This document shows, one piece after another, positions 1,699 to 27,736 of a stretch of 34,289 nucleotides of DNA. The notes under the pieces were generated by a model. That model was not told the DNA's origin and searched no databases. It was given only the letters and a program-made list of their open reading frames with translations. Location of the stretch: contig CATPCJ010000128.1 of NCBI GenBank assembly GCA_955652915.1, positions 1 through 34,289 of the forward strand, given 5' to 3'. Both the position numbers and the translations under genes were made by a program. Within the stretch, counting starts at the first letter, position 1, and every line of letters starts with the position of its first letter. The stretch is from an uncultured Bryobacteraceae bacterium. GTDB lineage: Bacteria; Acidobacteriota; Terriglobia; Bryobacterales; Bryobacteraceae.

Positions 1699-2531
1699 GG
1701 TACACGCTGACCACCACTATCGCGCTCATCCGCGACACTTTTCGCGAAGCGTTCGCGCGTAAAATCTTTTGGGGATTGTTTGGTCTTTCGACGTTACTGA
1801 TCCTGTTCTTTCTCTTTCTGCTGAAGATCGACCTGGTGGAAGGAGCCATTGCCACCGTCTCGCTGTTCGGCCGGACAGCGAATCGCACCACCGACGTCGA
1901 CCGCCTGGTGCGCGGTATCTACGGAGGGATCGCGACGTTTCTCTGCTACTGGGGAATGATTCTAGCCGTCTTCGCGTCCGGCGGACTGATTCCCAGCATA
2001 CTGGAACCGGGCCGCATCGAGCTGCTGCTTTCAAAACCGGTTTCCCGAACACACATCCTGCTGGGACGCTATGTGGGCAACATCCTGGTAGTTTCGTGCA
2101 ACATAAGTTTTCTGGTGCTGGGCGTCTGGACCATTCTCGGCGCGAAGACTGGCATCTGGTCCAAAACCTTCCTGATCTCTATTCCGGTCACCATCTTCAT
2201 CTTCGCAGTGCTGTTGGCCGTGGTGGTGCTGATCGGCGTACTCTTCGAAAGCGCCGCGCTGTCCACCATGGTCACGATCGTATTACTGATCATGAGCCCC
2301 ATCCTGGCCCAGACCAGTATGATGCTGCGGCTGTTGTCCTCGGAGTGGTCGCGGCAGATTTGGCGAACGCTCTACTACGCTTTGCCCAAGGTCTACGATC
2401 TCGGAAAAATAATGCTGGATGCCATCCAGGACGAGACCTTCGCCGGCTACATGCCCATCTGGACATCGGCATTATTTGGAGTGGTCATGCTGAGTACGGC
2501 ACTGGCCGTCTTCGCCAGGAGAGATTTCTGA
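1695..2531 (+). CDS. ABC-2 type transporter permease
   Basis: Integral membrane partner of the preceding ATPase, 278 residues. About six hydrophobic segments are visible, near residues 22-43, 75-97, 126-148, 160-184, 190-209 and 255-272. Between the second and third is GLIPSILEPGRIELLLSKPV, the amphipathic cytoplasmic loop typical of ABC-2 permeases of the copper/NosY type. The gene overlaps the ATPase by four bases and the following lipoprotein by one base (TGATG at 2529-2533), so the three form one transcription unit. The exported substrate cannot be told from the sequence. Confidence 0.9.
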   Translation: MRYTLTTTIALIRDTFREAFARKIFWGLFGLSTLLILFFLFLLKIDLVEGAIATVSLFGRTANRTTDVDRLVRGIYGGIATFLCYWGMILAVFASGGLIPSILEPGRIELLLSKPVSRTHILLGRYVGNILVVSCNISFLVLGVWTILGAKTGIWSKTFLISIPVTIFIFAVLLAVVVLIGVLFESAALSTMVTIVLLIMSPILAQTSMMLRLLSSEWSRQIWRTLYYALPKVYDLGKIMLDAIQDETFAGYMPIWTSALFGVVMLSTALAVFARRDF

Positions 2532-3436
2532 TGCGTGCGGTCTGGGTGGCGCTCGCATGCCTGGCCTTGCCCGCTTGCCAGCCGAAAAAACTAGAGTCGC
2601 TACGCATCGATCCTTCGCTTGAATCGATGATCCCGGCCGGCACCCTGTTCATCGCCGGGGCGGACCTCGATGCCATTCGCGATACTCCCGTCTACCAAAA
2701 GCTGCTGGGCCGCATGCCATTGCCGCAGCTCGACGAATTCACGCGGCAGACCGGACTCGATCCGCGCAAGGATCTTACGCGCGTGATTTCGTGCACCAAT
2801 GGCAAACAGAGTTTGCTGATGGCGCGCGGCAAGTTTAACGTCAGCGAGTTGGAAAAACGCCTTGAAGCGCGTGGCGCCAAGCGCTTCACCTACAAGAACC
2901 ACAGCCTGTTTGGCGACGAAAAAATGGCGGTTTTCTTCATGAATGCGACCACGGCAATTGCCGGGCCGGACTCGGACTTACGTTTACTCATCGATCAGGG
3001 TAGCGGCAGTGGGCGCGGCATACCTCCGGCGCTGCGCGATTTGATCCGCACGATTCCGGCCAACAATCAGATCTGGGCGGCGCTGACCGGCGGCCTTCAG
3101 GGGTTGAACATCGGCATTCCGCCCAATAGCAACCTGGAGAATATCGTGAACGCGCTGCAATCCATCGATACCGCGACGGTGGGGATGGATTTGAGCAAGG
3201 GCTTCGATCTTACGGCGGCCGTAACGTGCAAAACCGAGCGCGACGCGAAATTCGTGCATGACATGGTGCGAGGCATGGTCGGGCTCGGCCGCCTGAACAC
3301 ACCGGACAATCATCCGGAATTTCTAAAGCTCTATGACGCGATCAAGGTGACCCATCAGCAGACTCACGCCCAGGTCACCGCCGAAATCCCCGCGGATTTG
3401 GCAGACCGATTCATGGATCTGTGGCTGAAACGATAG
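2531..3436 (+). CDS. Putative lipoprotein of unknown function, coupled to the ABC exporter
   Basis: A 301-residue protein whose first 16 residues (MRAVWVALACLALPAC) form a short signal with lipobox LPAC and acylated Cys16. The mature part reads as one globular domain opening with PAGTLFIAGADLDAIRDTPVY, with no membrane segment. I do not recognise a named family. The reading frame is open much further upstream, to 1769, but that stretch runs through the permease gene in another frame. ATG 2531, one base overlapping the permease stop and followed at once by the signal sequence, is the start. The coupling suggests it works with the exporter at the cell envelope (inference). Confidence 0.8.
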   Translation: MRAVWVALACLALPACQPKKLESLRIDPSLESMIPAGTLFIAGADLDAIRDTPVYQKLLGRMPLPQLDEFTRQTGLDPRKDLTRVISCTNGKQSLLMARGKFNVSELEKRLEARGAKRFTYKNHSLFGDEKMAVFFMNATTAIAGPDSDLRLLIDQGSGSGRGIPPALRDLIRTIPANNQIWAALTGGLQGLNIGIPPNSNLENIVNALQSIDTATVGMDLSKGFDLTAAVTCKTERDAKFVHDMVRGMVGLGRLNTPDNHPEFLKLYDAIKVTHQQTHAQVTAEIPADLADRFMDLWLKR

Positions 3437-3453: not shown

Positions 3454-3565
3454 ACGTGGCGCGGACACTACTAGTATCTGCGGCCTCGCGACTCGTTTCG
3501 AGGCTCTTCCCGCGCGGAGCATCGAGACGATTCTCGATGCCGCAGCCTGAGAGGCCGCGCCACGT
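3454..3565 (+). repeat. MITE-like palindromic element, family B, copy 1
   Basis: A 112-base non-coding element with terminal inverted repeats ACGTGGCGCGG (3454-3464) and CCGCGCCACGT (3555-3565). Internal palindromes include ATCGAGACGATTCTCGAT near 3520-3537 and a GCCTCG/CGAGGC pair near 3483-3504. A second copy lies inverted at 25525-25626, similar over its full length with a few indels. It sits between the lipoprotein and 2Fe-2S genes and has no coding capacity. Confidence 0.8.
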
Positions 3566-3583: not shown

Positions 3584-4003
3584 ATGACAGACGAAAATCG
3601 CGAACGGCTCCAAAAGGTCGCCGGTGATTTGGGCATTGGCCGCCTCAGCCGCCACATTTTCCTGTGCGCGGATCAAACCAATCCCAAATGTGCGCCCCGC
3701 GAAGTCACCAATGTCTCGTGGGACTTTTTGAAGAAGCGTCTGGCGGAGCTTGGACTGGTGCAAGGCGAAGGCTGCGTCTATCGCACGAAAGCGAACTGTC
3801 TCCGCATATGCGAACAAGGACCAATCGCGGTGGTGTATCCGGACGGTGTTTGGTATCACTCCGCCACTCCAGACGTATTGGAACGGATCATTCAGGAACA
3901 CCTGATCGGCGGAAAGCCGGTGGATGATTTTGTATTCGCCGTGAGTCCGCTTGGGGGGCAGGTTGGTAACCTGCCACCGATTGTAAATCGACCCGCAAAA
4001 TGA
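3584..4003 (+). CDS. (2Fe-2S) ferredoxin domain protein, thioredoxin-like fold
   Basis: A 139-residue protein with the thioredoxin-like [2Fe-2S] layout. HIFLCADQTNPKC supplies Cys28 and a nearby cysteine, and TKANCLRICEQGP supplies the later pair. WYHSATPDVLERIIQEHLIGGKPV is the usual family ending. Related domains carry electrons for hydrogenase-like or NuoE-like partners or stand alone as small ferredoxins. No partner is visible here. The last 16 codons and the TGA stop are encoded by dispersed repeat family C, so the tail is probably an acquired extension. The start is ATG 3584. An AGTGGTGCAAGT stretch precedes it without a strong Shine-Dalgarno. Confidence 0.88.
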   Translation: MTDENRERLQKVAGDLGIGRLSRHIFLCADQTNPKCAPREVTNVSWDFLKKRLAELGLVQGEGCVYRTKANCLRICEQGPIAVVYPDGVWYHSATPDVLERIIQEHLIGGKPVDDFVFAVSPLGGQVGNLPPIVNRPAK

Positions 4004-15695: not shown

Positions 15696-15757
15696 CAGCG
15701 CCCAGTATATCCCGACAGCCTGGGGAGACCTGTCCCACCGGAGTTGGACACTCTTAT

Positions 15758-15865
15758 GTGGGGCAGGATGGCATCCTGCCGCGGATTGGCAATCCGCCTG
15801 GTGTTGTATCCGGAATTACTCAGGGGCCGATTGCCAATCGGCGGCGGGTTACCAACCTGCCCCAC
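15758..15865. repeat. Dispersed palindromic element, family C, copy 2
   Basis: A 108-base element with ends GTGGGGCAGG (15758-15767) and CCTGCCCCAC (15856-15865), an exact terminal inverted repeat. It contains nested palindromes: GGCAGGATGGCATCCTGCC, GCGGATTGGCAATCCGC and CCGATTGCCAATCGG. It shares the GGGGCAGG...CC(T)G(C/T)CCCAC plan with 3954-4027. It ends two bases before the stop codon of the rhamnose isomerase gene. Confidence 0.8.
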
Positions 15866-15867
15866 AA

Positions 15868-25524: not shown

Positions 25525-25626
25525 ACGTGGCGCGGCCTTCAGGCTGCCGCATCGAGACTCGTCTCGATGCTCCGGAAAAAAGCCTCGATACGAATCTCGA
25601 GGCCGCGACGTGTGTCCGCGCCATGT
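25525..25626 (-). repeat. MITE-like palindromic element, family B, copy 2
   Basis: A 102-base element, inverted relative to the copy at 3454. The ends are ACGTGGCGCGG (25525-25535) and CCGCGCCATGT (25616-25626, one mismatch). It carries ATCGAGACTCGTCTCGAT inside and the GCCTCGATACGAATCTCGAGGC palindrome in place of the copy 1 hairpin. It lies between the convergent aldolase and symporter genes; 25394-25524 beside it shows no gene. Confidence 0.8.
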
Positions 25627-25643: not shown

Positions 25644-26876
25644 CTAGCTTTCCGCTTCCACCAACGTCGGCGCATCCTGATCGAACTTCACGCCCTCCCA
25701 CCGCGCCACCACCACCGTCGCCATGCAATTGCCCAGCAGGTTGACCGACGTCCGCGCCATGTCCATCAGCGCATCCGCTCCCAGAATCAGTGCCACCCCG
25801 GAAATCGGCAGACCAAAGCTTGCCAGCGTTCCCGCCAGAATCACGAGCGACGCGCGAGGCACCGCCGCAACGCCCTTGCTGGTCAGCATCAGCGTAAGCA
25901 TCATGAGCAACTGCTGGCTTAACGGCATGTGTACTCCGGCGGCCTGCGCGACAAAAACCGAAGCCAGCGAAAGATAAAGCGTGCTGCCGTCCAGATTGAA
26001 GCTATATCCGGTCGGAAGCACGAAAGCCACGATGTGCTTCGGCACTCCCATCAATTCCAAATTTTCGAGCGCCAAGGGCAGCGCCGCTTCGCTCGACGCC
26101 GTGGAGAAGGCGATTATGAATGGCTCCCGCGCCGCCCGAAAAAAAGGCTTGAGCGGCACTCGCGCGATGAGAGCGACTGCGCCTAACACCACAAAGATGA
26201 AAATGAACAACGCCCCGTAGAGCGTCAAAATCAGTTTGCCCAAGCCCAGCAATACGCCGATTCCTTTGCTGCCGATGGTATGCGCCATGGCCGCGCCAAC
26301 GCCGATCGGCGCCAGATACATCACGTACTTCGTGTATCGAAACATCACTTCGGAAAGCGACTTGCAAACTTCGACGACCGCGGCCGACTTGGCGCCAATA
26401 GCCGCGCACGCCGCGCCGAACAGAAACGCAAACACCACGATCTGCAATACGTCGCCGCGCGCCATGGCGTCGATCACGCTGGCGGGGAAAGTGTGTTCCA
26501 GCGTGCCGGAGAGAGTGGGGGTTGTTTTCACCAATCCGGTCTCGGTTGGAGCTCGTTCCAGCGTCATCCCTTCGCCCGGACGAATCAGATTCACCGCGCC
26601 CAAGCCCAGGAACAGCGCGATGGTAGTCAATACTTCGAAATAAACGATCGCCTTCAGACCTATGCGCCCCATGGTCTTCACGCTGCCCGTGCCCGCGATC
26701 CCGTACACCAGCGTTGCAAAAATCAGCGGCGCGATGATGGACTTAATCAGACGCAGGAAGACGTTGGATAGCGCCGCCATCCAGTCCGCTTTGCCAACCT
26801 CCGGAAATATGGCGCCAACCGCCACGCCCAGCACCATCGCAATGAAGATCCACGCTGTAAGAGACAACCGCCTCAT
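25644..26876 (-). CDS. Dicarboxylate/amino acid:cation symporter (DAACS family)
   Basis: A 410-residue inner membrane carrier of the GltP/DctA family, which takes up glutamate or C4-dicarboxylates with protons or sodium. It has AFSTASSEAALPLALENLEL (the HP1 serine-rich hairpin), GYSFNLDGSTLYLSLASVF (N-x-D-G motif in TM7), TSKGVAAVPRASLVILAGTL (HP2) and MDMARTSVNLLGNCMATVVV (TM8). All are the normal binding-site elements. ATG 26876 overlaps the nadK stop (ATGA). The frame is open further upstream, but that part lies inside nadK. Substrate cannot be fixed from these motifs. Confidence 0.92.
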   Translation of the reverse strand: MRRLSLTAWIFIAMVLGVAVGAIFPEVGKADWMAALSNVFLRLIKSIIAPLIFATLVYGIAGTGSVKTMGRIGLKAIVYFEVLTTIALFLGLGAVNLIRPGEGMTLERAPTETGLVKTTPTLSGTLEHTFPASVIDAMARGDVLQIVVFAFLFGAACAAIGAKSAAVVEVCKSLSEVMFRYTKYVMYLAPIGVGAAMAHTIGSKGIGVLLGLGKLILTLYGALFIFIFVVLGAVALIARVPLKPFFRAAREPFIIAFSTASSEAALPLALENLELMGVPKHIVAFVLPTGYSFNLDGSTLYLSLASVFVAQAAGVHMPLSQQLLMMLTLMLTSKGVAAVPRASLVILAGTLASFGLPISGVALILGADALMDMARTSVNLLGNCMATVVVARWEGVKFDQDAPTLVEAES

Positions 26877-27736
26877 CGTTCGCCCCATTTTAGTTTTTGC
26901 CGCAAGACATCGAAGAAAAACATTTTGGGCGGACGGATCAGGTGGACGCTGTGCGGCGAGCTGCGGCAAATCAGGCGATCGCCGTTCATCAACGGCTCGC
27001 CCACTTGCCCGTCCACCGTCAGAAACGCTTCGCTGTCCCCTGCCAGACAAATGACTTCGATAACGCTCGTGTCCGGAACCAGCACCGGCCGGTTGGTCAG
27101 CATATGGGGACACACCGGAGTGATGCAGATGGCCGCCACGGAGGGATAAACGATGGGTCCGCCGGCCGACAATGAATACGCCGTCGAACCTGTGGGCGTC
27201 GCGACGATCAGTCCATCGGCTTTGAAGGTGCTGACGTACTGCGAATCGACGTGAGTTTCCAAATCGATCATACGCGCGATTTGTGTCTTGGAGATCACCA
27301 CGTCGTTGAGCGCCTCGTAGGCTTTTATCGTTTCCGACTGGCGCACCAGCTCTCCGTGCAACATGCGCCGCGGCACGATTCGTTGTTCGTTCTGAAGCGC
27401 TCGCTCCAACTCCGGATAAAGTTGATCCAGCGTGATGGCGGTGAGAAATCCCAAGCCGCCCAGGTTTACGGGAAACAGCGGAATCACGCGGCCGGCCACG
27501 GCGCGCGCCGCGGAAAGCAGCGTGCCGTCGCCGCCCAGAACGATCACCAGTTGCGCGCCATCGGGAATTTCCGCGCGCGGCAGTCCGTCCTCGCGGCCCA
27601 GGTAAAGTGCCGTTTCTTCATCCAGGCGCGATTGCACTCCGCGGGATTCCAGCCATTGAATCAACTCCGGCACAATCGCCGAGGCGTGCGGAATCCCCGG
27701 CTTGGCCATGATGCCGACCACCCTAATGTCTGGCAT
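26873..27736 (-). CDS. nadK: NAD kinase
   Basis: Makes NADP from NAD with ATP or polyphosphate, in the cytoplasm. It has the GGDGT motif (68-72), PVNLGGLGFL, the ALNDVVISK block with Asn143-Asp144, and TPTGSTAYSLSAGGP (179-193). 287 residues, normal length. ATG 27736 (MPDIRVVGIM) is preferred over the longer frame from 27769, since it fits the family N-terminus and has GGAG about ten bases upstream. It overlaps tlyA by 14 bases. Confidence 0.95.
   Translation of the reverse strand: MPDIRVVGIMAKPGIPHASAIVPELIQWLESRGVQSRLDEETALYLGREDGLPRAEIPDGAQLVIVLGGDGTLLSAARAVAGRVIPLFPVNLGGLGFLTAITLDQLYPELERALQNEQRIVPRRMLHGELVRQSETIKAYEALNDVVISKTQIARMIDLETHVDSQYVSTFKADGLIVATPTGSTAYSLSAGGPIVYPSVAAICITPVCPHMLTNRPVLVPDTSVIEVICLAGDSEAFLTVDGQVGEPLMNGDRLICRSSPHSVHLIRPPKMFFFDVLRQKLKWGER

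Follow-up and report, generated by a model that had tools for sequence, protein, structure and literature searches.

A RAYT-associated family of short inverted-ended repeats, probably REPIN-type mobile elements, in a Bryobacterales genome

Two short sequences with inverted ends lie in opposite orientation in the 34,289-nt stretch of DNA analysed here (the window, corresponding to contig C128 of a 7.09 Mb genome in 506 contigs). Which kind of element do they represent, and which enzyme, if any, would move them?

Family B in the window and in the genome

The first-pass annotation had described two matching, MITE-like copies of a "family B", and their positions, 3454–3565 on the plus strand (copy 1) and 25525–25626 on the minus strand (copy 2), were borne out, in agreement with a repeat search of the window in which nt 3515–3550 pair with nt 25539–25574 at 94%. 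In copy 1 the core GTGG...CCAC spans nt 3456–3563, and the outer AC (nt 3454–3455) and GT (nt 3564–3565) are read as target flank. The shared terminal inverted repeats are found at the termini as originally given, with the exception of one end of copy 2, which is ACATGGCGCGG. Both copies were also correctly placed directly past gene ends: copy 1 begins 17 nt after the stop of ORF 2531–3436, and 17 nt separate copy 2 from the 3' end of a symporter ORF on the minus strand (25644–27113). At the copy 1 locus the upstream genes are kept in three congeners, where the downstream gene is not adjacent within the stretches compared, and these gave no readable empty site. No Rfam match above the gathering score was found in the whole window, and a structured RNA family was rejected on this basis.

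Each copy contains two inner hairpins. Those of copy 1, both on the plus strand, belong to the ACAC half (GCCTCG..CGAGGC, nt 3483–3504), where the stem departs from the consensus by one mismatch and one G-T pair, and to the CCTGAGAGG half (GCATCG..CGATGC, nt 3519–3540). On the minus strand, copy 2 carries GCATCGAGAC..GTCTCGATGC (nt 25549–25570), an intact core located by pattern search, and GCCTCG..CGAGGC (nt 25582–25603), which in the minus-strand reading is followed by a T run, the sole terminator-like match there. The difference between the hairpins at nt 3483–3504 and 25582–25603 had been taken as compensatory change; however, the consensus palindrome is perfect and each of the two hairpins has a broken pair and a G-T pair where it has none, so that the difference reflects decay and not compensation.

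Further copies abound in the genome. A search with copy 1 as query gave 40 places (the best 40 of 223 candidates), all of 85–100% identity and nearly full length, and the remaining 23 rows of the search are the same places on the opposite strand, matched because the halves of the element resemble each other. The palindrome core TCGAGACNNGTCTCGA occurs at 185 genome sites, versus 0 for a reversed-pattern control. Since the first 50 listed core sites correspond to about 40 elements, we estimate, short of a census, the number of elements that retain one or more intact cores at roughly 150, to which some with none, e.g., copy 1, are to be added. A literature search, incomplete in coverage, retrieved no description of the family B repeat.

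The anatomy of the element was derived by nhmmer from 67 loci or regions of the same genome, comprising the window, 29 BLAST-best loci, 36 core-list regions in contig order and contig C267, and leaving aside L001 and L034 as duplicates of the window and C267, respectively; L031–L033, L035 and L036, also included, gave no match. Among 74 non-overlapping matches, 58 cover more than 85 model positions, and 56 distinct near-complete copies lie within 3 positions of both model ends; the BLAST-best part biases this set towards copies resembling copy 1. The consensus left half reads GTGGCGCGG, a short hairpin ACAC/GTGT, CTGC and a long hairpin GCCTCGAGAC/GTCTCGAGGC, and the right half a long hairpin GCATCGAGAC/GTCTCGATGC, GCAG, a short hairpin CCT/AGG and CCGCGCCAC, with a spacer of about 10–15 nt between the two long hairpins. 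The whole element, ~105 nt in length, is bounded by GTGG...CCAC and consists of two unequal halves, each having a GTGG foot and two hairpins; the foot is present in nearly all of the 56 copies. Single halves exist as well, both in the same genome (L050, L063 and L065 are one half each by nhmmer) and in several relatives. Another short repeat, GCGTCCTGTTTRGTTCCGGCYATGCC, was observed at 13 places of the genome (e.g., L126 and L128), often adjoining family B copies.

A RAYT gene between the ends of the element and its relatives

The transposase with matching ends that the first-pass annotation had suggested looking for is present in the genome. One of six genes with a Pfam Y1_Tnp domain, the RAYT gene at C267:5976–6560, lies between both family B halves, in the same order and orientation as in the element, with 96% identity to the element consensus over 46 nt at the left end and 100% over 52 nt at the right end. 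This unit of left end, RAYT gene and right end, about 670 nt long, is present once, and contig C267 stops 4 nt beyond the right end. The encoded protein, P0001 (195 aa), has the motifs NHVH, WQ and YIENNP and scores 31.2 bits against Pfam Y1_Tnp (cut-off 23) and 74.5 bits against NCBIfam REP_Tyr_transpos, just below the equivalog cut-off of 80; three of its relatives score 67.3, 79.6 and 80.4 bits. The right end of the unit is at the same time the last ~17 codons of the P0001 ORF, i.e., the C-terminal tail of the protein. No relative of P0001 with a solved structure was found by sequence at E ≤ 0.001, and structure prediction of a RAYT relative with a 3-row alignment gave a mean pLDDT of 37.5, too low for use.

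Because the RAYT gene lies between exactly the same ends, the ~105-nt element looks like the unit minus its gene and, RAYT being an HUH/Y1 enzyme, a REPIN or TIRtron derivative is a closer label than MITE. Two more RAYT genes of the genome have ends of another kind: L033, on contig C369, lies between two halves of another repeat (family A), and L035 has a 23-nt inverted repeat, so that different RAYTs carry different ends. Family A (GTGGGGCAGG...CCTGCC...) occurs in the window as a full inverted pair (nt 15757–15867) and as a single half (nt 3951–3994), and the latter encodes the final codons (GGQVGNLPP...) of the window ORF 3584–4003. The homolog of this ORF product in genome G004 aligned only up to residue 127 of 139, so that this tail could have arisen by insertion, unless the stop is wrongly placed.

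Relatives of P0001 at E ≤ 1e-10 were retrieved in 27 of 61 genomes (its own and 60 others). The named relatives are Candidatus Solibacter and Bryobacterales MAGs which, together with the search itself, place the genome under study most likely in the order Bryobacterales. A first set of 25 RAYT loci (23 from the P0001 search plus L033 and L035, without the distant L094–L100, L032 and L036) includes 19 with inverted flanking ends at E ≤ 1e-4; in 14 of these 19 the stop codon falls within the right end or past it, and in the remaining five the contig ends first (two loci) or the ORF stops earlier (three loci). In a second set of 24 further loci, 17 have inverted ends, 13 of them with a stop codon within or past the right end; one locus was cut. 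Altogether, 36 of 49 Bryobacterales RAYT loci are bounded by inverted double-hairpin ends, which share a common plan (foot, hairpin, hairpin) and differ in the sequence of the stems. Two RAYT copies in genome G002 (L075 and L101) are 84% identical over 589 nt, with homology stopping at the outer limit of the right end; this similarity is suggestive of the movement of a RAYT unit, although the L101 sequence is cut before any left end.

Within the family, the core pattern was found in 43 of 237 genomes, with 185 sites in the genome under study (G000), 79 in G171, 56 in G198 and at most 17 elsewhere; four congeners have 0–5 sites. A P0001-like gene at E ≤ 1e-30 is present in 17 of the 19 genomes having at least 3 core sites versus 73 of the 218 others (Fisher p = 2e-6, in a test that ignores relatedness and genome size and at a threshold that lets in RAYTs with other ends), and P0001-like genes are also present in many genomes without these cores. 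Against this association, no P0001-like gene was found at the same threshold in G171 (79 cores) and G258 (3 cores); REP families without their own transposase have been reported (PMC6006769). The cores of G171 (L180–L186) belong to a sister family with longer spacers, as read from two full copies (L184 and L186).

Insertion sites and pairing of the ends

Target-site duplications were searched for in the 56 copies at lengths of 2–12 nt and five boundary offsets, and none was found: only two of the 55 combinations gave a weak signal, reached by 2 and 5 of 300 shuffles, respectively. The "MITE-like" description thus stands as far as a miniature, high-copy, inverted-ended element with a matching-ended transposase is meant, and falls for a classical MITE with target-site duplications. 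The base preceding the core GTGG...CCAC is C in 48 of 56 copies, itself preceded by A in 35 of 56; the core is followed by G in 44 of 56, then by T in 35 and C in 37, and C before and G after the core occur together in 37 of 56. An element-free copy of a host repeat on contig C83 (L126) reads CGCACCACGTAGCGTCC, and its paralogs with an element read CGCACC-AC[GTGG...] (L127) and CGCACT-AT[GTGG...] (L128) on one side and have [..CTAC]GTC at the opposite side. The comparison fits an insertion at AC^GT, although the two paralogs have diverged in their right flanks.

In genome G248, of a related genus, an element of a sister family, and not of family B, lies in frame within hypF (ORF of 775 aa; TIGR00143, 767 bits). 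It is found at the same place in G249 and is absent in G254, G252, G255 and G250, with a net gain of 120 nt relative to G254; the exact junction is blurred because the flanks diverge. A second in-frame copy in G248 is located in a pyridine-nucleotide oxidoreductase gene, with a remnant in G249 and none in G254. Both the hypF and the oxidoreductase elements (L198 and L197) are read through in frame. At two other sites in the genus of G248 (L195 and L190) the neighbours have other insertions or unrelated sequence, and no clear empty site was found.

As single-stranded DNA, four copies are predicted to fold far more stably than shuffled sequences (z from -5.3 to -9.1), and the predicted fold is one long arm instead of local hairpins; both forms are therefore possible. 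Under the local-hairpin structure, 95.8% of the cells are paired in the 56 own copies versus 94.3% in shuffled ones, 7 pairs are changed on both sides versus 3.1 (7 being reached by 2 of 500 shuffles), and 19 double-changed cells are found versus 4.3 (0 of 500). In a set of 30 distinct long hairpins, taken from the genome under study and its relatives, the covariation score is 0.208 versus 0.102 (0 of 500), the outer four pairs being the informative ones since the inner seven are fixed or nearly so by the way the sites were found. Kinship among sequences inflates both covariation tests, and some double changes are possibly swaps between halves. From these alignments we conclude that pairing has been maintained, most clearly between lineages. 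The selection on structure proposed from the two window copies is accordingly supported by stems that covary in the 56 copies and across relatives, and not by the hairpin pair on which it was based, which shows decay.

Origin, alternatives and comparison with known systems

These results make it very probable that family B is a non-autonomous REPIN-type mobile element of a Bryobacterales genome, which a RAYT, as a single-strand HUH/Y1 transposase, mobilises in trans. The existence of a parent unit and of a miniature that shares its ends, the lack of duplication on insertion and the pairing within the ends are all directly observed or well supported, and the following scheme builds on them. The parent unit consists of left end, RAYT gene and right end, and the miniature, which has both ends, each with its GTGG foot, short hairpin and long hairpin, would have lost the gene by deletion. 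P0001 would recognise the foot and hairpins on single-stranded DNA and would cut after C at both ends (AC|GTGG and CCAC|GT); the cut ends would then be joined and re-inserted at an AC|GT-like target without duplication. Recognition by P0001, the cut sites, a single-stranded intermediate and AC|GT as the insertion site are inferred by analogy with TnpAREP, which is described as cutting C|T, and in one case C|A, beside the foot (PMC8266576); catalysis by the RAYT is presumed. Movement of family B, and the present activity of any of its copies, are likewise presumed. It is even conceivable, although we consider it doubtful, that the Bryobacterales RAYT is a still autonomous single-strand transposon and not a domesticated gene, moving as one compact unit and shedding its gene to give miniatures with both recognised ends, in which case the protein tail and the DNA end would coevolve, because the right end and the last codons are the same bases.

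The position of the copies relative to genes might instead point to a transcription terminator or mRNA-stability element under selection, whose mobility is now irrelevant. According to gene calls from a home-made codon-usage gene finder, not curated, 35 of the 56 copies lie between co-directional genes, 14 between convergent and 1 between divergent genes, 5 overlap a gene by more than 20 nt and 1 is at an edge. The distance to the nearest gene 3' end has a median of 6 nt and does not exceed 20 nt in 35 of 49 copies. With a single divergent copy among the 50 classified, and divergent gaps making up 3,022 of the 5,262 intergenic bases (window only), divergent regions are avoided, which selection against promoter insertions explains as well as targeting does. 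The terminator-like match at copy 2 also speaks for such a function. However, the orientation relative to the nearest gene is unbiased (25 same, 24 opposite), copy 1 has no terminator-like match, only 3 of 56 copies have at least 5 T among the 7 bases that follow the long hairpin, and numbers vary widely among relatives, from 185 sites in this genome to 0–5 in the four congeners. A primary function of this kind is thus improbable, and may exist as a secondary role. Far less probable still, to the point of being negligible, is a classical MITE derived from a DDE transposon whose terminal inverted repeats are short: the length of about 105 nt, the inverted termini (ACGTGGCGCGG ends) and the high copy number would suit it, but the matching ends flank a Y1 transposase, and the DDE-type MITE was rejected for the absence of target-site duplication in the 56 copies.

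A different origin with the same enzyme deserves more weight, although it too seems rather unlikely: two single REP-like repeats could have become paired, and the RAYT gene could later have come to lie between two of them, with no internal deletion. The single halves reported above agree with it, and the origin is left open in Bertels and Rainey 2011 (PMC3116915). Against it, the element has two unequal halves, and this very pair encloses the gene without a change of order; related RAYT ORFs usually enter or cross the right end, as fits a compact unit; and the run GGAAAGAG, of only 8 nt, beside the right end is common to many elements and to the end of the G002 RAYT gene. Deletion of the gene from a RAYT unit is our preferred reading over the capture of a RAYT by two repeats.

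The kind of element is already known, among REPINs, REPtrons and TIRtrons, and family B is not a DDE-type MITE. As in the REPINs and RAYTs described in PMC3116915, an inverted palindromic pair with a short spacer is present in hundreds of intergenic copies together with one cognate, repeat-carrying RAYT; with respect to the same description, each family B half has two hairpins and about 46 nt, the foot is GTGG and not GTAG, and the unequal halves are the RAYT's own left and right ends, the latter crossed by the ORF. A GT[AG]G foot is accepted, GTAG being the usual form (PMC6006769). In TIRtrons (TIRYT; BMC Genomics 2013, PMC3733652), tyrosine transposase genes lie between terminal inverted repeats, as do the P0001 gene and most of the related loci, and some of these repeats are double palindromic, overlap the gene 3' end or form repeat families, in hosts that include Acidobacteria. 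This likeness is drawn from the description. Some TIRtron repeats share GGGGWSAS, which the family B ends lack (PMC3733652), and most TIRYTs fall in another subclass, 2.1 (PMC6006769).

Closer correspondence is found with TnpAREP subclass 2.4 of Quentin et al. 2018 (PMC6006769), characterised by NH[IFV]H, WQ, YIxNNP and a median of 194 aa, with "double foot" REPs bounded by GT[AG]G and C[TC]AC and in-frame REP insertions. P0001 agrees in NHVH, WQ, YIENNP, 195 aa and GTGG...CCAC, an assignment by motifs and length only, and the two-hairpin half is a family B feature that does not appear in the subclass 2.4 description of PMC6006769 in the portion considered. The class 3 repeats of Solibacter usitatus share with family B an acidobacterial host and a high copy number (about 600), whereas their foot is CnGA and the Y motif of their enzyme ends in EQ, compared with YIENNP in P0001 (PMC6006769). 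Against the IS200 equivalog, P0001 scores 25.2 bits, with a cut-off of 55. IS200/IS605 elements have an enzyme of the Y1 superfamily and subterminal hairpins, and make no target duplication.

What family B contributes is an exact match, in one genome, between unequal ends flanking a gene and the unequal ends of an element. In other respects family B is an ordinary, abundant genomic parasite. The origin of REPINs and their movement by RAYTs are general questions, and family B makes the origin of such an element easy to test: one RAYT unit and ~150 miniatures, with relatives having other hairpin sequences, are natural matched pairs of enzyme and DNA, which would allow tests of recognition, of cut sites and of the deletion origin.
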